Below, piece by piece: positions 1,997 to 40,545 of a stretch of 64,000 bases of DNA. Source of the DNA: an uncultured Latescibacterota bacterium (GTDB taxonomy: Bacteria > Latescibacterota > UBA2968); the NCBI GenBank assembly GCA_951812755.1, contig OX638329.1:6377107-6441106 (forward strand), given 5' to 3'. The position numbers and the translations under genes are program-made. Position 1 is the first letter of the stretch, and the number at the start of each line of letters is the position of its first letter. The notes below the pieces were generated by a model. It saw only the letters and a list, made by a program, of their open reading frames with translations, was not told the origin of the DNA and did no database searches.

Positions 1997-3121
1997 ATGG
2001 AAATTAAATCAGAGGGCGCTTATGTCCGAGAGGGCGAGGAGATGGCGTTCGCGCTTGGGAATCGCGGTGCTATCCGATTTAATGTGGATGGTACGCTGGA
2101 TGAGGATATTGTAGAGGCGTATTGTCGCGTGGGTTTTTATGTGTTTGAGGGTGCGCTGGGCGATGAGGAACTCGAAGATTTGCAGGCGGATCTGGCGCAT
2201 GCATTTGAGCGGGCGCCGCATACTAAAGATGCGGTGGTCGATTCGAAGGGCCGCAAAGCGCTCGGGGCGGATTTGGTGCGACAGCCGTTTCGCTTTGTCA
2301 GACCGCTGAGCGATCCCGTGGGGGGTACGTCGAGCAATAATGGGCGGCATCCGGCCAGGATGACGGAGCCAGAGCCTCCCGCCGATGCGCCGGATTATGT
2401 GATTTCCAATATCGGTGCCCCTTTGCAAATTATGGATTCTTGTTTGCGGCTTTACGGACATCCCCAACTGCTGTCTGTTGCAGAGCAGATTAATGGGCCG
2501 GATTTTACGCCGTTTACCGAGTCTGTTATTGTCAAGCAGCAAGGGTTGGGCGCATCGGTAGCCTGGCATCAGGATGGCACCACGCAGTGGGATAGGCCCG
2601 ATTGGGATGAGGGTACGCATGGGTTTAATTTTATGGCTCAGCTTTTCGGGAGTACTGCGGCCAATGGGGTGTGGGTGGTTCCCGGGTCGCACAAGCAGGG
2701 CAAGCTGGATATTAAAGCGATGATTGCGGATAATGGTGGTTCTGACCGTTTGCCGGGGGCGGTTCCTATGGTGTGTGAACCCGGCGATGTGGTTATGTCC
2801 AATCGCCAGGCTTTGCACGGCTCTTTTGCCAATACGTCGCCGGATAAGCGGGTGACGGTCAATTTTGGCTTTCACCGCCGGTCTTCTGTTCTGAATGCGC
2901 GGGTGAGGCGTGGGGATGAGGAGGTGATTTACGACGAGGCGCGTATCTACGAGCGTTCTCGTTTGATCGCGCTGGGGATTGATGCGCGGCAGCAGCGATT
3001 TCCAGATGAATCCCGCTATGTTTATCAGCCTTTGATTGGGGAGGAGGATGTCAACAGGTGGAACGAAGAGACGCGGGAGAGCATTTTGAAAAATTATAAT
3101 CAGAGAGATCTGGGGCTTTGA
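1997..3121 (+). CDS. Phytanoyl-CoA dioxygenase (PhyH) family oxygenase 1
   Basis: A 374-residue non-haem Fe(II)/2-oxoglutarate dioxygenase. The iron triad is visible as H191-Q-D193 (WHQDG) and H274 (ALHGSF), with R285 positioned to bind the 2-oxoglutarate carboxylate. The double-stranded beta-helix core spans about residues 180-300. AAGGAG lies just upstream of the ATG. The last 154 bases, including the stop, recur at 5420-5573 beyond the next gene. It sits upstream of a DUF6785 gene, an arrangement that suggests a shared substrate. Bacterial members hydroxylate varied small molecules, so the substrate cannot be named. Confidence 0.88.
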   Translation: MEIKSEGAYVREGEEMAFALGNRGAIRFNVDGTLDEDIVEAYCRVGFYVFEGALGDEELEDLQADLAHAFERAPHTKDAVVDSKGRKALGADLVRQPFRFVRPLSDPVGGTSSNNGRHPARMTEPEPPADAPDYVISNIGAPLQIMDSCLRLYGHPQLLSVAEQINGPDFTPFTESVIVKQQGLGASVAWHQDGTTQWDRPDWDEGTHGFNFMAQLFGSTAANGVWVVPGSHKQGKLDIKAMIADNGGSDRLPGAVPMVCEPGDVVMSNRQALHGSFANTSPDKRVTVNFGFHRRSSVLNARVRRGDEEVIYDEARIYERSRLIALGIDARQQRFPDESRYVYQPLIGEEDVNRWNEETRESILKNYNQRDLGL

Positions 3122-5419: not shown

Positions 5420-5573
5420 GGGGATTGATGCACGGCAGCAGCGATTTCCGGATGAATCTCGCTATGTTTATCAGCCTCTGATTGGGGAGGAGGATGCCAA
5501 CAAGTGCAACGAAGAGACGCGGGAGAGTGTTTTGAAAAATTACAATCAGAGAGATCTGGGGCTTTGAGGTGGG
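5420..5573 (+). pseudogene. Duplicated 3' tail of PhyH gene 1
   Basis: These 154 bases match 2974-3127 at 144 positions by hand alignment, with no gaps. They encode the last 48 residues of PhyH protein 1 with a few substitutions (W to C, R to K), plus the same stop codon and the following AGGTGGG. No start signal or N-terminal part is present. It is the scar of a tandem duplication or recombination around the DUF6785 gene. Confidence 0.9.
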
Positions 5574-6314: not shown

Positions 6315-6381
6315 CTGTCAGGACGCACAGAATGAGCTTCTTAATTTCTTTTGAAGCCCAGGCTTTGAGTAAGGTATGGAA

Positions 6382-7824
6382 ATGATTTCGAGAAATTTCC
6401 TGGCGGGTGTTGCCAAGGTGGTTATAACCGATCCGGAGGCGGGACCGGCCAATGACCCGCTTTATGTCAAAGCGCTGGTATTGAGGTCTGGTGATGAGAT
6501 AGCTGTTATTGTGACTGTAGATGCGGTAGCGATAGCTGAGATCGGTTCTATCAAAAATGACTTTCTCGCCAATGTGCGTTCGCAATTGAATAGGGAGTTA
6601 AATCTCGATCCCGCACGTATTCTAATCAACGCCAGTCATTGTCACGGCAAGGTCTGTGCAGATGTGGAAGCGCGAACGGTTCAAGCAGTCGTGGAGGCGT
6701 GGCAAAATATGGTCCCCGTAAGTGTGGGCACTGGCACCGGCTGCGAGGACAGGATTATGGAGAACCGCAGGCTTGTGTTGAAAAATGGAAAGGAGGCCGA
6801 TGTCCGTCACGCGTACTCGCTTCCGCCCGATGAGGAAATCGCTTCGGTTGGGCCAGTCGATCCGGAAATCGGCATTCTTCGGCTGAACCGGGAGGACGGA
6901 GAGACGCTGGCGGTTGTTTTCAATTTCGCGTGTCATCCGATTCTGGAGGTGCCGAGCAGAGAAAATACGGCGGATATTTCCGGGTTTGCGTCACAAGTGA
7001 TTGAAGATAATTTGAGCGAGGATACGATTGCCCTGTTTTTGCAGGGTTGTGGGGGCGATGTCAATCCGGTTTTGTACAAGGATGTCAATAATCCGCGGGA
7101 TGCCGAGGTTCTGGGAAATATGCTGGGTCTCAGTACTTTGCAGGCGTTGAAAAAGATCCGCAGTAGTGAAGGCGGGGAGTTGAAGGTTATCCGTGAGACC
7201 ATTGAATTGCCGAGGGCCGATCTCGCGGGGCGGATCGAATCTCTACAGGCCGAACAGATACAATTGCTTCAGGCTCTGAAGGGGACGAGTCTCAATTTGA
7301 AGACGTTTATTCCTCTGTATGTGAAATACAATCTTTCTCGCGATTTTCCTTCTTATTATTCTCATCGTTATTTACATGAGGAGATGATGGGGAGAGATGG
7401 TCTGAAGAAGCTGGATGCCGAAAATAGAGAGAGTATGGATCGATATGTTGAGAATATTTACGCGATGGAGCAATTGACGAGGATCCAGATAAATCTGAAT
7501 TTGCTCAAAAAACATCAGGCTCGGAATGTAGATTCTGGAGAGAATACAATTGAAGTTGAGATGATGGGTTTGAGGGTTGGGGAATTTGTTCTGGTTACGT
7601 TCCCGGGTGAGTTGTCGGTGGAGATCGGTCTCAATATTAAAAAAAGGTCTCCGCATAAGTTCACTTTTGTCGCGGGTGTTACAAATGGCTATATCTATTA
7701 TACGCCAACGGCGGAGCAACTCAAAAATCGGGGTGGGGCACAAGAAGATAGCGATTGTATGCTGGCGCCGGAATGGCAGGTGATTTTTGAGGATAAGGTG
7801 GGGAAATTATTGGCGGTGTTGTGA
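6382..7824 (+). CDS. Neutral/alkaline ceramidase-like hydrolase
   Basis: About 480 residues resembling the N-terminal catalytic domain of neutral/alkaline non-lysosomal ceramidases. Zinc-type motifs NASHCHG (about 84-90) and FACHP (about 182-186) are present. In the segment GCGGDVNP the position that holds the catalytic Ser in true ceramidases (GDVSPN) is Asn. It is shorter than ceramidases and lacks a signal peptide, so a cytoplasmic hydrolase of another substrate is likely. TAAGG precedes ATG 6382 by seven bases; ATG 6376 is possible but too close to that site. Confidence 0.7.
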   Translation: MISRNFLAGVAKVVITDPEAGPANDPLYVKALVLRSGDEIAVIVTVDAVAIAEIGSIKNDFLANVRSQLNRELNLDPARILINASHCHGKVCADVEARTVQAVVEAWQNMVPVSVGTGTGCEDRIMENRRLVLKNGKEADVRHAYSLPPDEEIASVGPVDPEIGILRLNREDGETLAVVFNFACHPILEVPSRENTADISGFASQVIEDNLSEDTIALFLQGCGGDVNPVLYKDVNNPRDAEVLGNMLGLSTLQALKKIRSSEGGELKVIRETIELPRADLAGRIESLQAEQIQLLQALKGTSLNLKTFIPLYVKYNLSRDFPSYYSHRYLHEEMMGRDGLKKLDAENRESMDRYVENIYAMEQLTRIQINLNLLKKHQARNVDSGENTIEVEMMGLRVGEFVLVTFPGELSVEIGLNIKKRSPHKFTFVAGVTNGYIYYTPTAEQLKNRGGAQEDSDCMLAPEWQVIFEDKVGKLLAVL

Positions 7825-27188: not shown

Positions 27189-29669
27189 ATGAATGCTTTG
27201 ACCGGATTGAGTCGATTACGAGATCGGGGAAACTGGAACAAATTCCCCTGCAATTGGATCCTTTTGGTAGGGATAGGGATTGCGATCCTCATATCTACCG
27301 TTTCTGCCCGGGATGAAACAGAACAACAGGAGCTTTCCAAAGTCGAGAAGGACTCTCTGCTTGTCCGGGGAGAGCAACAGATGCTCGAAGGCGTGCCCGG
27401 CGATGCGGTCGTCACCTTCACCCGGCTGGTTGAGGCCTATCCGGAGGATGCCGCCCTTCGCTCTCGGCTTGGCTACGCCTACCTCAAAAACCGGGACTTC
27501 AAGGCTGCCGAAAAGACCTTCAAAACGGCCAAAAAGCTGGATGCAACCCATCCCGATGCCTATGTGGGTCTCGGACTGGTCTATGTGGAGGGGCCCGGTA
27601 GGGGACTCCAGGCCTTCTTTAACTCCAGGCGCGCTCGAGGCGAGGCCAGGCGGGCGATCAGGATTGATTCTACTTATGCCCCGGCGTACCGGCTTTTGGG
27701 CGAACTCTATGAGCGCTTCTGGCAGGACCACGAGAAAGCCATCCACTACTATGAGAAGTACGTAGTGCTGGAGCCCGACAATGTAGATGGGCTTTACTAC
27801 TTCGGACTCGCCTGTGTGCAGGGCGAACAGTACAGCAAGATTAACACATACCTCACGCCTCACCTGAAACCGCATCTCATGGAGACCCGGCTGATCCCCT
27901 TAATAGCCCAGGGCTACTTCTTTTTAGAGCACTATGAAACCGCCTTAGAACAGTTCGAGCGCTATCTACAGAAGGTAGATGATCAAGAGCGCCAGCACTA
28001 TACCGACATCTCGCTCGTTGCGTCTGAGAGAGAATTTCACGCCTATCAAGCGATCTCTGACAGTATCGAGCGTCTGGATTACCTGGAAAAATTTTGGCTG
28101 CGGCGGGATTCCGATATCCTGACGCGGATCAACGAGCGTATCATTGAACATTACCGCCGGGTCTGGTACGCACGCACCTTTTTTTCCAAAAAGGTCTTCC
28201 CATGGGACAAGCGGGGAGAGGTCTATATTCGCTACGGAGAGCCAGACCACCGTTCCAGTAAGCGGCAGTTGAGTGTGAGCCCTGAGGTCGAGGCGGTGCG
28301 CACCCGGATGGCCGTGGACCTGTATGGCCCTGCCGCCACGTATTTAACCTTTACCGGACCGGTCTTTCCCATCCGGTCCAGCCCTCGTCGCCCCGATATA
28401 GAGTACGATATCGCAACGGAGTCCTTCGACGCGCCCGGAGAGTTAGAAGAGACCGTGGGTCCGGATCCGGCGGAAGCGGAAGGAGATCCCAACGCCGATA
28501 TGCTCGGCCTGAATCCCACGAGTATGTTGGATGAGTTGGGAAATCCAAATCTCCGCCTCACCTTCGAAAACTACGCTCCTGTGACGATGGAGCGCAGCGC
28601 TGAAACCGTGCCCTGGGAGACGTGGACCTACACCCAGCTCCAGGGAGGGGTAGAGTTTACCTTTACCGATGAGTTCGGCAGCGGCGACTACGAGTTTGCC
28701 CGGGTTCCCCCCATTTCCACCGGAGAGAACAAGCTCGCAAATGCCGCGCGAATGCTCGAATATGCTCCCGGGACGGTCTTCCAGAGGATTGTTGCACAAA
28801 CCCCCGATTATTATCGCCCGAGCATACGAGGTGCCGCGTTGCATTTCTATTACGATCTGGCCGATTTTCGTGGTTCCGAGGGACAGACCAATTTCGAGAT
28901 CTATTACGGTATTCCCCCCCGCGAGGTGGAGATCGTCAAGGGAGACGAGGACTTCGTGATCCGGGTGCAGAGCTCCATGGCCCTGATGAACGAGGATTAC
29001 ACCCATATTTACCGCGCTACAGATGATTTTTTTTACCAGAATAGCAAGGGTTTCAGTCAGGCGAGAGGGGTGTTTGTGCCCGACCAACTACAAGTTCAGG
29101 TGCCGCCCGGGAAATACGAGCTACAGGTTCAGCTCAAGGACATGGCCTCGGCACGCATCGGGATCTATAAGCAGTCTGTAGAGGTCTCGGACTATGCATC
29201 GGAGGGCCTCCATGTCAGCGGCATCCAGCTCGCTTCTTCAATTGGCGATGAAGGGACGAACGACCGATTTAGAAAGGGCGAACTCTGGGTGGTTCCGGTG
29301 CCTTCCAGGACCTACACGAAGGAGCAGAAGGTCTATGCCTATTTCGAGATCTATAACTTGAAACGGAATGACTACGGTCAGACCCGTTACAAGGTGAAAT
29401 ACCTGGTGCGGTTCACGCCCGAAGCTACTGTGGGAATTGCCGGGGTGATTACGACCGGGATCCGTTCGCTCTTCAAGCGGAAAAAACCCCAGGTGTCGGT
29501 GACCTACGAGCAGATAGGGACGGAGCGGTCTGAGTACGAATATGTCGAACTCGATTTGAGAAGGGCAAAAGCTGGCGTGAATGTATTGGAGATTACTGTT
29601 GAAGATCTGGTCAGCGGTGAGGTTAGGGTGCGAGAGGTTGTTTTTTATTACGGAGGTACGCCGGGATAG
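27189..29669 (+). CDS. TPR and GWxTD-domain protein A
   Basis: An 826-residue exported protein. A signal or anchor segment (about 19-40) leads to tetratricopeptide-like repeats at about 50-290 (ALRSRLGYAYLKNRDFKAAE and AYRLLGELYERF). A GWxTD-type domain follows at about 300-380, recognised from FWLRRDSDILTRINERIIEH and RGEVYIRYGEPD. The namesake GWxTD is replaced by PWDKRG here and PWDQRG in the paralog at 38131. A long beta-rich C-terminal region (about 430-826) follows. GWxTD proteins are widespread in FCB and related phyla, with no firm function. ATG 27189 has AAGGAG upstream. Confidence 0.8.
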   Translation: MNALTGLSRLRDRGNWNKFPCNWILLVGIGIAILISTVSARDETEQQELSKVEKDSLLVRGEQQMLEGVPGDAVVTFTRLVEAYPEDAALRSRLGYAYLKNRDFKAAEKTFKTAKKLDATHPDAYVGLGLVYVEGPGRGLQAFFNSRRARGEARRAIRIDSTYAPAYRLLGELYERFWQDHEKAIHYYEKYVVLEPDNVDGLYYFGLACVQGEQYSKINTYLTPHLKPHLMETRLIPLIAQGYFFLEHYETALEQFERYLQKVDDQERQHYTDISLVASEREFHAYQAISDSIERLDYLEKFWLRRDSDILTRINERIIEHYRRVWYARTFFSKKVFPWDKRGEVYIRYGEPDHRSSKRQLSVSPEVEAVRTRMAVDLYGPAATYLTFTGPVFPIRSSPRRPDIEYDIATESFDAPGELEETVGPDPAEAEGDPNADMLGLNPTSMLDELGNPNLRLTFENYAPVTMERSAETVPWETWTYTQLQGGVEFTFTDEFGSGDYEFARVPPISTGENKLANAARMLEYAPGTVFQRIVAQTPDYYRPSIRGAALHFYYDLADFRGSEGQTNFEIYYGIPPREVEIVKGDEDFVIRVQSSMALMNEDYTHIYRATDDFFYQNSKGFSQARGVFVPDQLQVQVPPGKYELQVQLKDMASARIGIYKQSVEVSDYASEGLHVSGIQLASSIGDEGTNDRFRKGELWVVPVPSRTYTKEQKVYAYFEIYNLKRNDYGQTRYKVKYLVRFTPEATVGIAGVITTGIRSLFKRKKPQVSVTYEQIGTERSEYEYVELDLRRAKAGVNVLEITVEDLVSGEVRVREVVFYYGGTPG

Positions 29670-29820: not shown

Positions 29821-30696
29821 ATGAAATATGGACTGAGCGTGCAACAGGTGGCGCAGTTCCACGACGATGGTTTTTTGATCGTCCGCGATCAGCTTCCCAA
29901 AGAAGCGTACCAACCGTTTATCGATGAAATCATGGCTAAAATTGATGAGGTGGTGGGCGCGGCGGTGGATGAGGGATTGCTCAATCCGGGGGATACCTTC
30001 CCAGACGCGCCTTTTGAGACCCGATTGGCTCTGGTGTCGAATGCATGTTCGGAGCCAGAGCGGATCTGGAAGAATTTTCAGGGCAAGAGATATAAGACGC
30101 CCGGGATGTTCGCGCTCAGGACGCATCCCGCTATACTGGACGCGACTGAATCTCTGATTGGTCCTGAAATTTTCGCCCATCCGCAGTCCAATCTGCGCGC
30201 CAAATTGCCGGATCTGGAGGCGACAGTGGTGCCGTGGCATCAGGACCTGGCTTATCTCATACCGGAGGATGCGGGAGAGACGCTATTCGTCAATTTCTGG
30301 ATTCCACTGGTTAAGGCGACGGCTGAAAACGGGTGTTTGCAGGTGCTTCGCGGCTCCCATCAGGTCGGTCTTTTGCCACATAATTATCGAACGCCTCACT
30401 TCAAAGGGATTTTCGAAAGCGATCTTCCAGATTTTGAGGTCGTGACTTGCGAGGTCAATGTGGGCGATGTGTTGTTGACGATGGAGCGCGTTTTGCATCG
30501 ATCAACTCCGCATACGACAAAATCCGTCAGGTGGAGTCTGGATGTCCGCTATAGCCGCATTGGGCTTCCGACAGGTCGTGAGAATGTGCCGGGTTTTATT
30601 GCTCGCAGTCAAGTTAATCCGGAAAGTGTGGCCCGGTCCCATCGCGACTGGCTCAGGAATTACGAGATGGCGGGTGTCGATCCAGTTGGTAATTGA
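29821..30696 (+). CDS. Phytanoyl-CoA dioxygenase (PhyH) family oxygenase 3
   Basis: A 291-residue Fe(II)/2-oxoglutarate dioxygenase with a clear triad: H140-Q-D142 (PWHQDL) and H226 (VLHRSTPHTT), with R237 as the likely 2-oxoglutarate anchor. TTGGAGG precedes the ATG. The gene ends 13 bases before the aconitase X large-subunit gene, with the ribosome site in between, so it is probably the first gene of that operon. A hydroxylated amino acid or related acid is a reasonable product given the dehydratase downstream; that is inference. Confidence 0.88.
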   Translation: MKYGLSVQQVAQFHDDGFLIVRDQLPKEAYQPFIDEIMAKIDEVVGAAVDEGLLNPGDTFPDAPFETRLALVSNACSEPERIWKNFQGKRYKTPGMFALRTHPAILDATESLIGPEIFAHPQSNLRAKLPDLEATVVPWHQDLAYLIPEDAGETLFVNFWIPLVKATAENGCLQVLRGSHQVGLLPHNYRTPHFKGIFESDLPDFEVVTCEVNVGDVLLTMERVLHRSTPHTTKSVRWSLDVRYSRIGLPTGRENVPGFIARSQVNPESVARSHRDWLRNYEMAGVDPVGN

Positions 30697-30709
30697 GGAG
30701 GAGTGTTTT

Positions 30710-31960
30710 ATGGAACTGACAGGAGAACAGCAGGCGGTTCTGGATGGGTCGCGGGGAGACTATCTGGCCAAGTGTATGCGCTGGCTGGTTGAATGGGGCG
30801 AGGTGATGGGGGCAAAACGGCTGATTAAGGTGGATAATACACACGCTTTGCTGCCAGTGCCCAATTTGATGGCACGGGGGGCGTCCAAAGAGACAATGGA
30901 CCAATACATGGCCGATCTCGTGGAGGCGTGTTCCCACGGGACACATCCCGGATGTACCTGTACGGTGCATGCCGCGTTTGTGACTCTGGACGATGTGGAT
31001 GTGCCCGAGAATGATCCCGAACAGGTGCAGATGCAGAAGGATCTGGCGGTTCTGGCTGCGAATGCGGGGTTTATCCCCACTTTTACCTGTGCCCCGTACC
31101 TGGTGGGCAATGTGCCGCTCAAGGACGAGATTCTGGCGTGGACGGAATCATCTGCGGTGGTCTATGCCAATTCTATCCTGGGCGCGCGGACTACGCGGCA
31201 CGGCACGGAGAGCGCGATTGCGGCTTCGCTTCTGGGTCTGGTTCCGGAGTTTGGCGTGTTGCTGGATGAGAATCGCAAGGGTACGCTTCGGATAGAGGTA
31301 ACGGCGGAGTTGGAAGATCCGCCCGATTGGGGTGCGCTGGGCTATTTTGCCGGGAAAGCAGCGGGTCTGGGTATTCCGGTGTTCAATGGTGTGCGACGGC
31401 CCTCTCAGGACGAGGCCAAGCAACTCTGTGCGGCGCTGGCGACTTCGGGCGGGGTGACGATGTGTCATATCGCCGGGGTTACGCCAGAAGCGCCCACGAT
31501 AGATGCGGCTTTTCAGGGGGATGTTCCCGAGGATTATCTGACGTTTGATGCAGAGACGTTGAGGGAGACGTATGAGTCTTTGCGGGTGCGTACGGGAGAT
31601 GAAATCGATTCCGTAATTTTGGGTTGCCCGCATGCGTCTATTAATGAGTTGTCGAAAATCGCCGCTCTTTTGAAGGGGAAAAAGGTGGCGGAAGGCGTGC
31701 GCTTGTGGATCGATACGGCGCGGGGTACCAAGGGGAATGCGGACAGGATGGGCTATACGGAGATTATCGAGGCGGCGGGCGGGCGCATTCTTTGCGATAC
31801 CTGTCCGACAAATATGCGGATTCCGGCGAAGCGCATTGTGACCCACGGTTTTAAGCAGGCGCACTATGCGCGGGGGATGGTGGGCGCGGAAGTGATTATT
31901 GCCAAGACGGACGCTTGCATACGCGCGGCAGTTGCCGGAAGGTGGCTCGGAGATGGCTGA
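30710..31960 (+). CDS. Aconitase X catalytic (large) subunit
   Basis: A 416-residue protein of the aconitase X family (DUF521). Conserved segments are DNTHALLPVPNL near the N-terminus, TTRHGTES, GCPHAS (305-310, C306) and CDTCPTN (C362, C365), the last likely ligating an Fe-S cluster. Characterised bacterial members dehydrate cis-3-hydroxy-L-proline, and archaeal ones act on mevalonate 5-phosphate. With a PhyH oxygenase upstream, a hydroxy-acid or hydroxyproline-like substrate is attractive. The true start is ATG 30710 after GAGGAGG. It overlaps the small subunit gene by eight bases. Confidence 0.88.
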   Translation: MELTGEQQAVLDGSRGDYLAKCMRWLVEWGEVMGAKRLIKVDNTHALLPVPNLMARGASKETMDQYMADLVEACSHGTHPGCTCTVHAAFVTLDDVDVPENDPEQVQMQKDLAVLAANAGFIPTFTCAPYLVGNVPLKDEILAWTESSAVVYANSILGARTTRHGTESAIAASLLGLVPEFGVLLDENRKGTLRIEVTAELEDPPDWGALGYFAGKAAGLGIPVFNGVRRPSQDEAKQLCAALATSGGVTMCHIAGVTPEAPTIDAAFQGDVPEDYLTFDAETLRETYESLRVRTGDEIDSVILGCPHASINELSKIAALLKGKKVAEGVRLWIDTARGTKGNADRMGYTEIIEAAGGRILCDTCPTNMRIPAKRIVTHGFKQAHYARGMVGAEVIIAKTDACIRAAVAGRWLGDG

Positions 31961-32378
31961 TACCATTGATATTAGAGGACACGGTGTGGTAAAGGGATAC
32001 GCCGAGGGCGAGGCGCTGGTGGCTGATACGACCCTGTCGTTCTGGGGTGAGGTGGATGCGATTACGGGCAAGGTGATCGGCGTGGGGCATCCCCTGGAGG
32101 GGATTTCTCTGGGCGGGCGCGTGCTGGTTATCCGCTCGACCAAAGGTTCTTCGGGTACGCCCATGGTTTTAAATCTGGCACAATTGGAAGGCAATGCGCC
32201 TGCGGCTTTTGTCAATGTGGAGGTGGATGGATTGGCTGCGCTCGGATGTATTGTCAATGAGATTCCTATGATGACAGAGTTGGATCGAGATCCGTTTGAG
32301 ATGATTGCTACAGGCGACCACGTGGTGGTAGATGCCGATGAGGGCGTGCTGCGGGTGACCCCGAGAGCAAGGAATTAA
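31953..32378 (+). CDS. Aconitase X swivel (small) subunit
   Basis: A 141-residue DUF126 protein, the swivel domain partner of the large subunit. The conserved core is VGHPLEGISLGGRVLVIRST, then KGSSGTPMVLN, whose Ser is the family's active-site residue. The ATG lies inside the large-subunit gene (eight-base overlap), the usual sign of translational coupling for obligate subunits. The subunits are separate here, as in the two-gene form of the family. Confidence 0.88.
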   Translation: MADTIDIRGHGVVKGYAEGEALVADTTLSFWGEVDAITGKVIGVGHPLEGISLGGRVLVIRSTKGSSGTPMVLNLAQLEGNAPAAFVNVEVDGLAALGCIVNEIPMMTELDRDPFEMIATGDHVVVDADEGVLRVTPRARN

Positions 32379-32384
32379 CCCGAC

Positions 32385-33131
32385 ATGTCTTTGTCTTTCA
32401 GATCTCGCGTTTTCGTGTTTGATGCCAATGTCGGGATCGGCAATCGCCACGACCGGCGATCTCCATTCGACTCACCCGATCAGTTGCTCGAAGAGATGGC
32501 GCGCCACGGGGTTGATCGCGCGCTTGTCTATTCCGTTCAAGGCGAATGGATTAGTCCGATGCAGGGGAACGACGCGCTCGCGGTATTGACGGATCGGAAT
32601 GACGCGCTCGTTCCCCAGTTCGTCGCCGGGTGCGATTCTGGTTCGCTGAGGCAGTTGTGCGATCTCCACCGGGATGGTGTTGTTTCGAGCGTACGGCTGC
32701 ACAATACCGCGGAATGCAGGCTGCCATTTGTTTCGTGGCTTTACGGTGATTTGCTCGCCTGGCTGAGTGCCGAGGGTATTCCCCTTTGGGTCTCGTTGGC
32801 GGATACGCCGCCGGTCGAGATCGTCGATACGTTGAGTCGGTATCCGGACCTGACTGTCGTGTTGGTCGGCGCGCATTATACGCATTCGATGATGATCCGT
32901 CCGATGATGCGGGTGTTGCCCAATGCGTTTCTCGAACTCAGCCGTTATGAGAATATCTGCGGGATCGAAAAGCTCGTTCGGGAGTTTGGCGCGCGTCGCC
33001 TGCTGTACGGATCGTTTTTCCCGCGATATGCGATGGGACCGATGCTGTACGCGCTCCATCATCTGGAGATATCGGACGATGATCTCAGGTTGATCTGTGC
33101 GGCGAATCTGGAGCGGGTTCTTTATGATTGA
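32385..33131 (+). CDS. Amidohydrolase-fold protein lacking metal ligands
   Basis: A 248-residue protein that follows the amidohydrolase_2 TIM-barrel plan (VFDANVGIG start, VRLHNTAE, LVGAHYTHSMMIRPMM, RLLYGSFFPRY end) but has lost key residues. DANVG stands where the first strand normally has DxHxH, and GSFFP stands for the usual GSDxP, so the catalytic Asp is gone. It overlaps by eight bases with an intact relative and may be a non-catalytic partner or regulatory subunit. Codon use and frame look healthy, so it is not a decaying gene. Six bases separate it from the aconitase X small subunit. Confidence 0.72.
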   Translation: MSLSFRSRVFVFDANVGIGNRHDRRSPFDSPDQLLEEMARHGVDRALVYSVQGEWISPMQGNDALAVLTDRNDALVPQFVAGCDSGSLRQLCDLHRDGVVSSVRLHNTAECRLPFVSWLYGDLLAWLSAEGIPLWVSLADTPPVEIVDTLSRYPDLTVVLVGAHYTHSMMIRPMMRVLPNAFLELSRYENICGIEKLVREFGARRLLYGSFFPRYAMGPMLYALHHLEISDDDLRLICAANLERVLYD

Positions 33132-33873
33132 CGGTTGGGAAATTATCGATTTTCACGGGCACGTCGGCCGATGGGATATTTTTGAGATGAGCGATGATGC
33201 CGAGGAGATTCTCCACGCGATGGATGCCGTGGGCATTGATCGCTGTTGTCTGTTCAATATTTTTCATCCAGATGGCGCAACGGGCAATGATCAGACTGCG
33301 GCTTTTGTGAGTCGCTACCCGGAGAGGTTCATCGGCTTTGCCTATGTCTCTCCCCTGATGTCCGAATTTATGGTATCCGAATTGGAACGGGCGATTGACA
33401 GGCTCGGGTTTTTGGCGATCAAGATCTACCCGCCCTATTCCCGCTGGCTGTTGAACGATCCCGTGTGGGATCCGGTTTATCAATTTGCGGATGACCGCGG
33501 TCTGGCGATTATTTCGCATACGGGTGCGGAAGAGACGTGTTGGCCCGTTTATGTTGAGGATATTGCCGGGCACTATCCGAATGCGAATTTTGTGATCGCG
33601 CATGCGGGCAATTCCGAGCCGTACAGAAGTCAGGCGATTCGGGCGGCGCAGCGATTTTCGAATGTTTATGTCGAGACGTGTTCCACTTTCCGCGAGCCTG
33701 GTGTGATCGAAAGACTGGTTGCCGAAGCGGGTGCCGATCGCGTACTTTTCGGTTCGGATGTTCCGCTTATGGATCCGCGAACGCAACTGGGGAAGATTAT
33801 TACCGCGAGGATTGGCGATTGCGAAAAGCGCCTGGTGCTTGGAGAAAATGCGAGACGTCTATTGAAACTGTGA
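33124..33873 (+). CDS. Amidohydrolase family 2 protein (intact)
   Basis: A 249-residue metal-dependent hydrolase or decarboxylase. The motif D-F-H-G-H appears at about residues 8-12, SHTGAE holds a later His, FVIAHAGN a further His, and VLFGSDVP the catalytic Asp. Its start codon lies within the end of the preceding degenerate relative. Together they may form a hetero-oligomer. The operon context (aconitase X, aminotransferase) suggests work on a small organic acid or lactone from amino-acid-like substrates. Confidence 0.82.
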   Translation: MIDGWEIIDFHGHVGRWDIFEMSDDAEEILHAMDAVGIDRCCLFNIFHPDGATGNDQTAAFVSRYPERFIGFAYVSPLMSEFMVSELERAIDRLGFLAIKIYPPYSRWLLNDPVWDPVYQFADDRGLAIISHTGAEETCWPVYVEDIAGHYPNANFVIAHAGNSEPYRSQAIRAAQRFSNVYVETCSTFREPGVIERLVAEAGADRVLFGSDVPLMDPRTQLGKIITARIGDCEKRLVLGENARRLLKL

Positions 33874-33886
33874 TGGAGATTGTGCA

Positions 33887-35212
33887 ATGTCACAAGAGAC
33901 TATTGAAGTTAGATACCGCGAATTGACGCCGATGTCCCGTCAGATATTTGAGGATGGTCGATCGGTGAATGCCGGCGCCGCCAAGGGCGCCTATTTTTTT
34001 TCGCCGTATCCGATCGCATTGCGGCGGGGGAAGGGATGTGTGCTCGAAGATGTTGACGGCAGGTCTTATGTCGATTTCTCAAATCACCATACCGCACAGG
34101 TTCTGGGGCACAACCATCCTGCGATTGTAGAAGCGGTGGAGAGACAGTTGGTCGATGGTATCGCGCTTGGCGCTGCAACGGGTATCGAGACCCGGTTGGC
34201 GCGGATGATGTGCGAGCGCGTATCATCGGTTGAGCGCATCCGTTTTGTCAATTCCGGGACCGAAGCCACATTGCACGCGGTTCGGCTGGCGAGATGTTTC
34301 AGCGGCAGGCCGAAGATCGCGAAGTTCGAAGGCGGTTACCACGGGAGTCATGACGCTGTGGAAATCAGCACTGCTCCGCCCCTGGAATCCGCGGGTGAAG
34401 CCTCTGCGCCCAATGCGGTTCCCAGTGCGGGAGGTATGGCGTTGCACGCGCTGGAGGATATGATTGTTTTGCCTTATAATGACGAGGAGAGCGTCGAGCG
34501 ACTTCTGTCGCGCCACCGGGATGAGCTGGCATGTGTGATTCTCGATCCAAAGGCGGGTATTATTCCGATCCGGCACGATTTCATCCAGCGGGTGCGCGCG
34601 ATTACCGAGGAACTCGGCATTTTGCTGATTCTCGACGAGATTGTCGGTTTTCGTCAGGCGAAGGGCGGTCTGCAAAGTCATGTGGGGATCAGGCCCGATT
34701 TGACGTGTTTTGGCAAGATGATCGGCGGCGGGTTTCCCGTCGGGGCTTTTGGAGGACGAGCGGATGTTATGGATCTGGTGGATAATTCCAGCGGGTCTTC
34801 GTCTGTTTTTCAGAGTGGTACCCACAGTAGCCACGCGGTGGCGATGGCTGCGGGAATCGCCACGCTCGAATCTATGACTGATGATGCTTACGCGCATCTG
34901 AATCGTCTGGGGAGTCGGCTGAAGACCGGTCTGGAAGATTTGTTCGCCGAACGAGGCGTTATGGCGCAGGTCGTTGTGACGGGGTCGGTGTTCAGTATCC
35001 ACTTTGGCATTGACCGGTTGCACGATTATCGCGATTTGACCCGGTCGGACAAGGCAATAGCACACGCCGTGTTCCTGTCTCTGCTCAATCAGGGCTATTT
35101 CTGCGGGCAGGGATTGAATATGTGTGCGATTAGTGTTCCGACGCAGGATGATCACATTGATGGTTTGATTTTAGCCGTCGGAAACGCCCTCGATGAGGTT
35201 GCGGACGGATAG
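33887..35212 (+). CDS. Class III aminotransferase (GSA-aminomutase-like)
   Basis: A 441-residue PLP-dependent enzyme of aminotransferase class III, closest in layout to glutamate-1-semialdehyde 2,1-aminomutases. Visible features are NSGTEATLHAVRLAR (phosphate-binding), ILDEIVGFR with D250 pairing the PLP nitrogen, and CFGKMIGGG with K277 as the Schiff-base lysine. A true housekeeping HemL is less likely because of its catabolic operon position. It probably moves an amino group on the product of the upstream dehydratase and hydrolase steps. The gene is followed by a hairpin that may end the operon. Confidence 0.87.
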   Translation: MSQETIEVRYRELTPMSRQIFEDGRSVNAGAAKGAYFFSPYPIALRRGKGCVLEDVDGRSYVDFSNHHTAQVLGHNHPAIVEAVERQLVDGIALGAATGIETRLARMMCERVSSVERIRFVNSGTEATLHAVRLARCFSGRPKIAKFEGGYHGSHDAVEISTAPPLESAGEASAPNAVPSAGGMALHALEDMIVLPYNDEESVERLLSRHRDELACVILDPKAGIIPIRHDFIQRVRAITEELGILLILDEIVGFRQAKGGLQSHVGIRPDLTCFGKMIGGGFPVGAFGGRADVMDLVDNSSGSSSVFQSGTHSSHAVAMAAGIATLESMTDDAYAHLNRLGSRLKTGLEDLFAERGVMAQVVVTGSVFSIHFGIDRLHDYRDLTRSDKAIAHAVFLSLLNQGYFCGQGLNMCAISVPTQDDHIDGLILAVGNALDEVADG

Positions 35213-35241
35213 GTCATCCCCATAGTGAGGGCCGGATACAA

Positions 35242-35272
35242 AAAGGGTCACTACAAATTGTAGTGACCCTTT
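35242..35272 (+). terminator. Hairpin terminator after the aconitase X operon
   Basis: AAAGGGTCACTACA (35242-35255) and its exact complement at 35259-35272 form a 14-base stem with a three-base loop, 30 bases after the aminotransferase stop. The T-run is short (CTTTA), but stem stability suggests termination. Confidence 0.7.
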
Positions 35273-35287
35273 ACATGTCTCAGTGAT

Positions 35288-35578
35288 CTAGTGCATCGTG
35301 GCGTAAGTCATGCCCCATATAGACATGAACAGCAAAACCTTCTGGATTACTGGCGTTGTGCCTACGGCGTGGCGGCTAAAACCATGCCGCAATGACAATC
35401 GCAAGTAAGATTGATATGGGTAGTGCATCGTGGCGTAAGTCATGCCCCATATAGAAGTGAACATCAAAACCTTCTGGATTGCGGCTTAAACCATGCCGCA
35501 ATGACAACCGCAAGTCAAATTGATATGACCAGTTTCTTTTGCCGAGATGCAGTAGTCTCTTTTGCCGCGATGAACTAG
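35288..35578. repeat. Two partial copies of the CTAG-bounded short repeat element
   Basis: The first copy begins at CTAGTGCATCGTGGC (35288) and breaks off near 35418. The second begins at about 35419 and ends at GCCGCGATGAACTAG. Both match the tandem array at 62188-62584, sharing GGCGTAAGTCATGCCCCATA and CAAAACCTTCTGGATT. The region otherwise holds no gene. Confidence 0.8.
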
Positions 35579-38130: not shown

Positions 38131-40545
38131 TTAAATCCTGCCGTAGAGGAAAGCCACTTCTCTGGTTTCGGTGTTTCCCGTTACCAGATCGGTAATGATT
38201 ACTTCGAGTACATTGACGCCGGTCTCGGCTTTGCTCAGGTCCAGTTCGATGTATTCCCTCTCAGTCGGTTGTGAGCCGACCTGTTCGTAGGTGACAGAGA
38301 CCTGGGGCTTGCGGCGTTTGAACAGGTTGCGGAATCCGGCGGCTACGATGCCTTTGACGCCGACTGGATTTCCGGGGTGGTGACGCACGCGATATTGAAT
38401 GCGGTAGCGCGTCTGCCCAAAGGTATCGCGTTTCAGGTTGTAGATTTCAAAATAGGCATAGACTTTCTGGTTTTCTTGATAAGCCCGGGATGGCATTGGT
38501 TCTATCCACAAATCCCCTTTCTGAAACCGGTCGTTGGTTCCGCTCTCGCCAATGGACGAAGCCAGCAGGATGCCACTTAGCCGAAGCTGATCGGTGCCGT
38601 AGTCCTGAATGTTCAGGGTCTGTTTGTAAACGCCCACGCGCTTGGAAGCCATATCCTTGAGTTGCACCTGTAATTCGTACGTTCCGGGTGGTACCTGAAT
38701 CCGCAGCATATCCGGGATATACGCGCCCTTTCGTCGGTCGAAATCCGTTGTGTTCTGGTAGGAAAATATCTCTGCTGCGCGAAAGATCTCGGTGTGACCC
38801 TCGTTTGCCAGTGCAAGGGCGCTGTGTACCTGGATCAAAAAGTCATCCTGTCCTGTTGCGATTTCCACTTTGCCGGGCGGTACTCCGTAGTAAACTTCCA
38901 CAGAGGTCTTTCCATCTGCGCCGCGAAAATCCGCGAGGTCGTAATAAAAATGGAGGGCGTCCCGTTCAATGTCCGGGCGATAGTAATCGGGGGTGGTGGC
39001 GGTGGCTTTGCGAAAGAGGACCCCGGGCATGTATTCCATCATCCGCGCTGCATGCTGGGTCTGATTCTCGCCTGTGGGCATGGGTGGCAATGGGGCAAAT
39101 GCGTAACGTCCGTTGTTCATTTCATCTGTAAATGTTATTTCGATGCCATCGCGGAGTTGTGTGTAGGTCCACGTCTCCCATGGCACGGTCTCAAACTCCC
39201 GGTCCATTGTGACGGGGGCGTAGTTCTGAAAATTCAGTCGCAATTTGATCCGGCCCGCTTGATCAAAAGGTGCCCGCCCGCTTCCCGCACCGCTTTCCTC
39301 GCTGATGGGGACGGTTAAATCCACCACATCTCCCGCTGTTACCACACCTTCAATATCTATTTCTGTATCCGGGTCCAATGTCCTCAAGTTCTGAATGCTT
39401 TCCCCGGTATTCAGATTGTGTTTTCGGATTGGAAAAACAGGCCCGGTAAATGTCAGATAAGCGGCATTGGGACCGTACATATCCACGGCCATTCGGGTGC
39501 GTACGGCCTCTACTTCGGGGCTGATCAGCAGGTTCGGCTTATCGGATGAAGATCGAAAATCGGGTTCGCCATATCGAATATAAACCACTCCGCGCTGGTC
39601 CCATGGGGTGGTGTTTTGCGAGAAAAAGGTGCGGGCATACCACACGCGACGATAGTGTTCGATAATGCGCTCGTTGATTGGGGTCAACACATCTGGATCT
39701 CGCCTGAGCCAGAATTGTTTCAAATAGGTCAGGCGCTCGGGTTCTTCGCTTTGGTATGCCTGCATTTCCATGTGCGAAGCGATGAGGGATATGTCCGTAT
39801 AGTACCCGCGTTCTCGTTCGCTCAGGCTTTGCAGGTAGCGTTCAAAATGCGCGAGAGCCATTTCGTATTGTTCCCGGTAAGAGTAGCCCTGTGCGACAAG
39901 GGGAAGCAGGCGGATCTGGTTGGGCTGTCGTTCGAGGGCGGGTGCGAGGTGGGTGTTGAGCGGGTCGTATTGTCCGGCCTGTACGCAGGCCAGGCCAAAA
40001 TAATAGAGTTCGTCCGGGCTGTCTGGCTCCAGTTCGAGGTATTTCATGTAGTAGCCAATGGCTTTTTCGTGGTCTGCTCGGAATCGCTCATAGAGGTCGC
40101 CTAATAACCGATAGGCCGGCGCGTAGGTCGAATCGATTTTGGTCGCCCGCCTGGCCTCTCCAACGGCTTTTCGAAAATTGAAAAAGGCTTTTATCCCCAT
40201 TGCAGGTCGTTTTACATAGACTTCGCCAAGGCCCACATAAGGGTCGGGCAATTGCGGGTTGAGTTGTCTGGCGTGCTCAAACGCGGTTTGTGCCGTGTCA
40301 AAATCCCCACGGGCGAGGTGCGCGGAACCCAGACGGGATCTGAATAGGGCATTTTCGGGATGGGTCTCCACCAGTAGGGCAAAGGTTTCGATGGCGGTGT
40401 CGAGCAGGCCGTTGCGCAGTTGATCTTCTCCCAGCGCGAGCAACGAGTCTGATGGCGCTGTTTCTACGCCTGTCTCTGCCCCGGCAAGCCCGAAACACAT
40501 CGGGATGATGAGGCATAATAGTATTCTACACAATATTGCGTTCAT
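38131..40545 (-). CDS. TPR and GWxTD-domain protein B
   Basis: An 804-residue paralog of the protein at 27189. A signal peptide (ILCRILLCLIIPMCFGLAGA) leads to TPR-like repeats (about 45-275), a GWxTD-type region with PWDQRG then VYIRYGEPD (about 314-330), and the same beta-rich C-terminal region (GTNDRFQKGDLWIEPMPSR, QVSVTYEQVG). The first Met at 40590 adds 15 residues without a ribosome site, so 40545 is preferred. It is divergently transcribed from cassette B and shares its 200-base upstream region. Confidence 0.8.
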   Translation of the reverse strand: MNAILCRILLCLIIPMCFGLAGAETGVETAPSDSLLALGEDQLRNGLLDTAIETFALLVETHPENALFRSRLGSAHLARGDFDTAQTAFEHARQLNPQLPDPYVGLGEVYVKRPAMGIKAFFNFRKAVGEARRATKIDSTYAPAYRLLGDLYERFRADHEKAIGYYMKYLELEPDSPDELYYFGLACVQAGQYDPLNTHLAPALERQPNQIRLLPLVAQGYSYREQYEMALAHFERYLQSLSERERGYYTDISLIASHMEMQAYQSEEPERLTYLKQFWLRRDPDVLTPINERIIEHYRRVWYARTFFSQNTTPWDQRGVVYIRYGEPDFRSSSDKPNLLISPEVEAVRTRMAVDMYGPNAAYLTFTGPVFPIRKHNLNTGESIQNLRTLDPDTEIDIEGVVTAGDVVDLTVPISEESGAGSGRAPFDQAGRIKLRLNFQNYAPVTMDREFETVPWETWTYTQLRDGIEITFTDEMNNGRYAFAPLPPMPTGENQTQHAARMMEYMPGVLFRKATATTPDYYRPDIERDALHFYYDLADFRGADGKTSVEVYYGVPPGKVEIATGQDDFLIQVHSALALANEGHTEIFRAAEIFSYQNTTDFDRRKGAYIPDMLRIQVPPGTYELQVQLKDMASKRVGVYKQTLNIQDYGTDQLRLSGILLASSIGESGTNDRFQKGDLWIEPMPSRAYQENQKVYAYFEIYNLKRDTFGQTRYRIQYRVRHHPGNPVGVKGIVAAGFRNLFKRRKPQVSVTYEQVGSQPTEREYIELDLSKAETGVNVLEVIITDLVTGNTETREVAFLYGRI

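Follow-up and report, generated by a model that had tools for sequence, protein, structure and literature searches.

Two separately inherited enzyme sets, an aconitase X module and an amidohydrolase-aminotransferase module, joined in one genus of Latescibacterota

Two reactions are known for aconitase X (AcnX) enzymes, the dehydration of cis-3-hydroxyproline (C3LHyp) and that of mevalonate 5-phosphate. In the former type, Asp203, Ile206 and Asn233 hold the ring nitrogen and the ring of the substrate, and in the latter Gly48-Ser50, Asn53 and Asn79 hold the phosphate (PMC8184944). The bacterial subclasses IIc-IIf have no assigned function in the same study (Watanabe et al. 2021, PMC8184944). Here we analysed a 64,000-nucleotide stretch (positions 6,377,107 to 6,441,106 of contig OX638329.1, hereafter the window) of the complete 6.53-Mb chromosome of a Candidatus Latescibacterota bacterium (G000), in which both subunits of an AcnX (AcnXL and AcnXS) are encoded in a row of six genes together with a PhyH-family oxygenase (PhyH), two proteins of the amidohydrolase-2 fold (AH1 and AH2) and a class III aminotransferase (AT3).

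For the other genes as well, described relatives exist. AH1 and AH2 belong with the amidohydrolase-2 family (ACMSD, gamma-resorcylate decarboxylase, the LigJ hydratase, BB4693 3irs), of which AH2 shares the metal site and AH1 the fold, the metal site of AH1 being lost. We know of no pathway that matches the six-gene set and of no counterpart of a tandem of one dead and one active amidohydrolase. The closest solved structure to AT3 is the omega-transaminase of Sphaerobacter thermophilus (6k8h), whose substrates are beta- and gamma-amino acids and whose Arg36 is suggested to bind the substrate carboxylate (PMC10589169).

From the computed gene identities, active-site states, subfamily position of the AcnX and inheritance of the genes, we find that the six genes are not conserved as a single unit: they consist of two separately inherited enzyme sets that were joined in one genus. 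The AcnX represents a distinct subfamily, with a substrate that is probably neither of the two known ones. What remains of particular interest is this well-delimited and experimentally tractable subfamily, along with a conserved pair of a dead and an active amidohydrolase.

Separate inheritance of the two modules

Module 1 is composed of PhyH, AcnXL and AcnXS, and module 2 of AH1, AH2 and AT3. The window AcnX is present in 10 of the 11 genomes of the genus, and in all ten (window included) PhyH, AcnXL and AcnXS stand together while the flanks vary on both sides. The PhyH orthologue of the nine others is 91-97% identical and lies immediately upstream of AcnXL, which bears out the link between PhyH and AcnX made in the initial annotation. 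Module 2 (AH1-AH2-AT3) is absent from two of these genomes (G005 and G006), and AH1 with most of AH2 is deleted from a third (G010), PhyH-AcnX being kept in all three; the one-contig genome G008 misses all six genes. Given these losses and the changing flanks, PhyH-AcnXL-AcnXS is the constant core and AH1-AH2-AT3 a separable module. In the sister genera (G011, G012 and G013) AH1-AH2-AT3 forms an operon of its own at a site without AcnX, and in other families of the class the AH1-AH2 pair is found without AT3 and without AcnX, while AT3 adjoins a different PhyH gene or another amidohydrolase. The vicinity of AcnX in G011 and G012 holds other PhyH genes and an alcohol dehydrogenase, with an esterase-like gene in G012. 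In every Acidobacteriota relative examined AH1-AH2-AT3 is missing beside AcnX, and AcnX has no constant neighbour there besides its small subunit.

We favour, as the more probable reading though with some reserve, an operon in which two metabolic modules were recently brought together. In module 1, PhyH, an Fe(II)/2-oxoglutarate oxygenase, would hydroxylate a compound with a carboxylate and might as such supply the hydroxyl of the AcnX substrate; the heterodimeric [4Fe-4S] AcnX would dehydrate a carboxylate with a beta-hydroxyl, presumably neither C3LHyp nor mevalonate 5-phosphate. In module 2, AH2 and the metal-less AH1, probably in one complex, would hydrolyse a small acid, or else hydrate or decarboxylate it, after which AT3, a pyridoxal phosphate-dependent aminotransferase of the beta-transaminase type, would exchange an amino group. 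PF05721 spans residues 13-237 of PhyH, and the HxD...H iron site is present by inspection (WHQD, and LHRS with the distal His).

Several observations weigh against this two-module reading. In the sister genera, the PhyH genes adjoining AcnX are not orthologous to the window PhyH, which finds its best matches there on other contigs, and with PhyH genes numbering at least 156 per genome, one of them next to AcnX says little about a common function. The two modules could still act together, since both are found in one place in 7 of the 11 genomes of the genus. A promoter scan found no promoter-like site on the + strand upstream of or within the operon. An orthologous PhyH-AcnX linkage beyond the genus was also considered and rejected, the neighbours in the sister genera being other PhyH paralogues. 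Most relatives searched with the window PhyH also give long lists of PhyH matches.

Alternatively, the six genes could be one dedicated new pathway, from which genomes without module 2 have secondarily lost a part or in which they use paralogues. This is possible but unlikely: the tight spacing, the single strand, the one closing hairpin and the seven genomes of the genus with all six genes (G008 having none) speak for it, whereas module 2 is older than the arrangement and located elsewhere in sister genera, AcnX occurs without module 2 in sister genera and Acidobacteriota, and the genus itself has seen at least two losses and, in two of the seven (G003 and G007), a sulfatase gene between AcnXS and AH1. 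The conservation of the neighbourhood, which had been put forward as a check, thus upholds PhyH-AcnXL-AcnXS and not the link to AH1-AH2-AT3, missing or broken in three genomes of the genus; the pathway through all six genes that had been envisaged is not supported, given these losses, the separate operon in sister genera and the Acidobacteriota, and a claim of one new six-step pathway would be weak. Likewise unlikely is the most far-reaching proposal, in which a third kind of AcnX dehydratase with a new substrate would act within one pathway in the genus with PhyH, a heteromer of dead and active amidohydrolases and a transaminase with a lysine pocket.

The aconitase X subfamily and its substrate

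Residue positions in the window AcnX were read off against both AcnX types of known structure (PMC8184944), with two different alignments concurring. Glu129, Ser130, Ser131, Lys361 and Tyr365 (Tk numbering) are retained, as are three cysteines that match the archaeal [4Fe-4S] pattern (Tk110, 283 and 342) and the catalytic Ser, which AcnXS, as aligned with AF0055 and the AtAcnX N-terminal domain, carries in a KGSS motif. Judged by these residues, the window enzyme is a true AcnX of two subunits with an intact catalytic core, of which AcnXL and AcnXS would form a heterodimer with a [4Fe-4S] cluster; its similarity in sequence to solved structures is enough to settle the fold. The initial annotation is thereby confirmed in describing the AcnX as two-subunit and its gene set as compact, both subunit profiles scoring above cut-off. 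It is the sole copy in the window genome, with only one match above cut-off.

In a 44-row tree the window AcnX falls in a clade of 19 rows (support 100/100, branch length 0.95), separate from the type I, putative IIa and archaeal members, so that its phylogenetic placement, a check proposed beforehand, puts it with neither the hydroxyproline nor the mevalonate-phosphate type. The clade is compact (70-98% identity) and common to Latescibacterota and Acidobacteriota, the members from the latter being 70-79% identical. All members checked share a clade-specific invariant set of N43, H45, N52, C82 and H87, the first four of which sit in a loop that is longer by about 20 residues; at His87 nearly all other AcnX tabulated carry Asn (or Asp, Ser, Leu). 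The presence in two phyla and its patchiness suggest that the clade moved laterally between them. This first tree favoured an origin of the Latescibacterota AcnX inside Acidobacteriota; a single Acidobacteriota clade was not rejected by the approximately unbiased (AU) test on the two-subunit tree (p 0.13), so that transfer may have run in either direction. In being two-subunit, bacterial and without the landmark residues of the known functions, the window AcnX resembles the uncharacterised type II subclasses c-f (PMC8184944), to one of which it may belong. As a two-gene unit with an intact core and a distinct invariant pocket, the clade can be expressed and screened.

On a reading hinted at in the initial annotation, PhyH would make or remodel hydroxyproline and the remaining genes would degrade the product. 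Two-subunit bacterial AcnX of type IIa does possess C3LHyp dehydratase activity (PMC8184944), and the window AcnX has in common with the C3LHyp dehydratase LhpI the fold, the catalytic Ser and the equivalents of Glu292, Ser293, Lys530, Tyr534, Cys273, Cys508 and Trp35. This last residue, of the small subunit, speaks for hydroxyproline: in AtAcnX it packs against the pyrrolidine ring, and the window AcnX shares it with its clade. The window AcnX lies, however, outside the type I/IIa clade, has a Cys at 449 instead of 510 and is without hydroxyproline gene neighbours. In both alignments the columns of Asp203, Ile206 and Asn233 hold Pro or Leu, Met or Leu, and His, whereas the type I controls L161 (adjoining 4-hydroxyproline epimerase) and L162 retain all three. 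Against the NCBI C3LHyp dehydratase model NF051439, which covers the fused single-chain form, it scores 244.7 bits (cut-off 700). The Pro_racemase profile has no match in the window genome, which thus has no gene of the proline racemase family; in a control on a Paracoccus plasmid the fused type I AcnX adjoins 4-hydroxyproline epimerase, proline racemase-family and Ldh-family oxidoreductase genes. Hydroxyproline is an unlikely substrate on these sequence grounds, and we rejected the assignment on residues, tree and genome content; the reading by which the whole gene set serves hydroxyproline is very improbable.

Even less credible is a phosphomevalonate dehydratase in a bacterial modified mevalonate pathway. 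The archaeal type IIb enzyme (TkAcnX, 7cnr) is the closest solved structure by sequence and shares with the window AcnX its two subunits, the cluster cysteines 110, 283 and 342, and Glu129/Ser130/Ser131/Lys361/Tyr365. The phosphate-binding loop is missing, though, together with the other phosphate binders (Ala47-Gly48-Val49-Ser50, Asn53 and Asn79, the last replaced by His after a loop longer by about 20 residues), while the Asgard controls L022 and L023 retain theirs, and the window AcnX is placed outside the archaeal clade. Of the mevalonate genes, a search for 3-hydroxy-3-methylglutaryl-CoA reductase (HMG-CoA_red) gave no match in G000 nor in nine other Latescibacterota genomes searched. Nor does the operon contain a UbiD gene, unlike the Asgard control, whose AcnX adjoins a UbiD decarboxylase and whose genome also encodes HMG-CoA reductase. 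This assignment was likewise rejected on residues, tree and genome content. With the substrate residues of both types missing and without racemase and HMG-CoA reductase genes, neither known AcnX function is likely.

Other AcnX classes were encountered as well. A second, divergent class (L089 in G017, L091 in G018, L094 in G013, L096 in G015, L098 in G016, L208 and L209) is hosted by other Latescibacterota genera and by Proteobacteria plasmids; its catalytic core is altered, with Asp-Thr-Gly replacing Glu-Ser-Ser/Asn, Cys283 changed to Thr or Ala and at most two cluster cysteines. A further class is 38-40% identical to the window AcnX (L158, L160, L199, L201, L202, L204 and L205, from Proteobacteria and Acidobacteriota). 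In its Acidobacteriota members a gene family of about 400 residues recurs directly upstream of AcnX, and in L158 (Paroceanicella) ilvD and an FAD-dependent oxidoreductase come before AcnX. The related class with a conserved neighbour family (the FAD-dependent oxidoreductase in L158) was set aside as a different clade from that of the window AcnX.

The amidohydrolase pair and the aminotransferase

In AH2 all six metal-ligand and catalytic positions (HxH, K, H, H and D) are retained, in the window copy and in 21 orthologues. AH1 has five of the six replaced, in the window copy and in all of 20 orthologues: HxH became N-x-G, Lys became Arg, His became Ser, and Asp became Phe or Tyr. The metal ligands expected of an active amidohydrolase-2 protein (HxH, His and Asp) are consequently present in AH2 and missing in AH1. 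The AlphaFold model of AH1 has a predicted local distance difference test score (pLDDT) of 89.6, and its top PDB matches are amidohydrolase-2 TIM barrels with template modelling (TM) scores of 0.7-0.8. AH1 is under purifying selection, with ratios of nonsynonymous to synonymous substitution (dN/dS) of 0.09-0.24, and overlaps AH2 by a few bases at most loci. By its predicted active site, AH1 is a catalytically dead paralogue, and throughout the phylum it is kept next to a partner that is active. The simplest reading is that both would form a heteromer of an inactive and an active subunit. We found no amidohydrolase pseudoenzyme heterodimer described in literature, and a conserved pair of active and metal-less amidohydrolases would allow the idea of a pseudoenzyme partner to be tested.

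AT3 matches 6k8h across nearly its full length with 338 bits, compared to 256 for glutamate-1-semialdehyde (GSA) aminomutases, and its 361.8 bits for the HemL (GSA aminomutase) equivalog TIGR00713 are below the cut-off of 527.3. At the position aligned with Arg36 of 6k8h, in the P-pocket, AT3 differs in having a Lys, invariant in 19 orthologues, and so lacks the carboxylate-binding Arg of beta-amino-acid transaminases of the 6k8h/4ao9 type.

Gene layout and flanking region

The six genes reported in the initial annotation were recovered as open frames with the same spacing and with Pfam agreeing on the families (Table 1). The Pfam cut-offs are 31.5 bits for AcnX, 27 for the AcnX swivel domain and 26.4 for Amidohydro_2, barely exceeded by AH1.

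Table 1. Features of the six-gene locus (window coordinates)
Feature	Position	Strand	Evidence
PhyH-family Fe(II)/2-oxoglutarate oxygenase, 291 aa	29821..30696	+	PF05721 86.9 bits
AcnXL, aconitase X large (catalytic) subunit, 416 aa	30710..31960	+	PF04412 404.6 bits
AcnXS, aconitase X small (swivel) subunit, 141 aa	31953..32378	+	PF01989 85.1 bits
AH1, amidohydrolase-2 fold protein without metal site (putative pseudoenzyme), 248 aa	32385..33131	+	Amidohydro_2 28.0 bits
AH2, amidohydrolase-2 protein, metal site intact, 249 aa	33124..33873	+	PF04909 126 bits
AT3, class III aminotransferase, beta-transaminase / GSA-aminomutase group, 441 aa	33887..35212	+	PF00202 (Aminotran_3) 188 bits
Terminator-like hairpin at operon end	35241..35272	+	RNA fold of 35225-35290, -26.3 kcal/mol

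The gaps between the genes are 13, -8, 6, -8 and 13 bases, and the six genes presumably share one transcript in the window genome. About 28 bases past the last stop codon lies a hairpin with a 14-bp stem and a 3-base loop (z-score -4.4; none of 200 shuffles equally stable in RNA folding), which likely marks the transcript end; it was not listed by a consensus terminator scan and its tail is poor in U. Between genomes of the genus the dN/dS of the six genes is 0.04-0.24, and this purifying selection indicates that none is a decaying pseudogene.

In six relatives of the same genus the next gene above PhyH is a ceramidase-like gene, the orthologue of which is found in the window at 6376-7821, 22 kb from PhyH. 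That the genes came together by chance, in the cargo region of a genome undergoing rearrangement, with PhyH, AcnX and module 2 unrelated in function, might be proposed from the block of about 22 kb that is present here and absent upstream of PhyH in these six relatives, from several DUF6785, sulfatase, TonB-receptor and tetratricopeptide repeat (TPR) genes close by, and from the abundance of PhyH, with at least 156 matches genome-wide. We consider it rather improbable, with PhyH-AcnXL-AcnXS being unseparated in ten genomes while the flanks change and with start and stop codons overlapping inside each module (PhyH-AcnX and AH1-AH2-AT3).

The intervening block (7825-29820) encodes a DUF4962/heparinase-like protein, DUF6785, a TonB receptor, two sulfatases, a PhyH and a TPR protein. 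A 48-codon remnant at 5421-5564, after a DUF6785 gene, is 92% identical to part of the PhyH377 protein of G001, of which a full copy stands upstream at 1997-3109; the remnant resembles a rearrangement scar. Large homologous TPR proteins, encoded on opposite strands at 27189-29669 and 38131-40545, flank the operon region, and the intergenic stretch past the closing hairpin (about 35290-35500) holds two near-identical copies of about 60 bases (gtgcatcgtggcgtaagtcatgccccatatag...).

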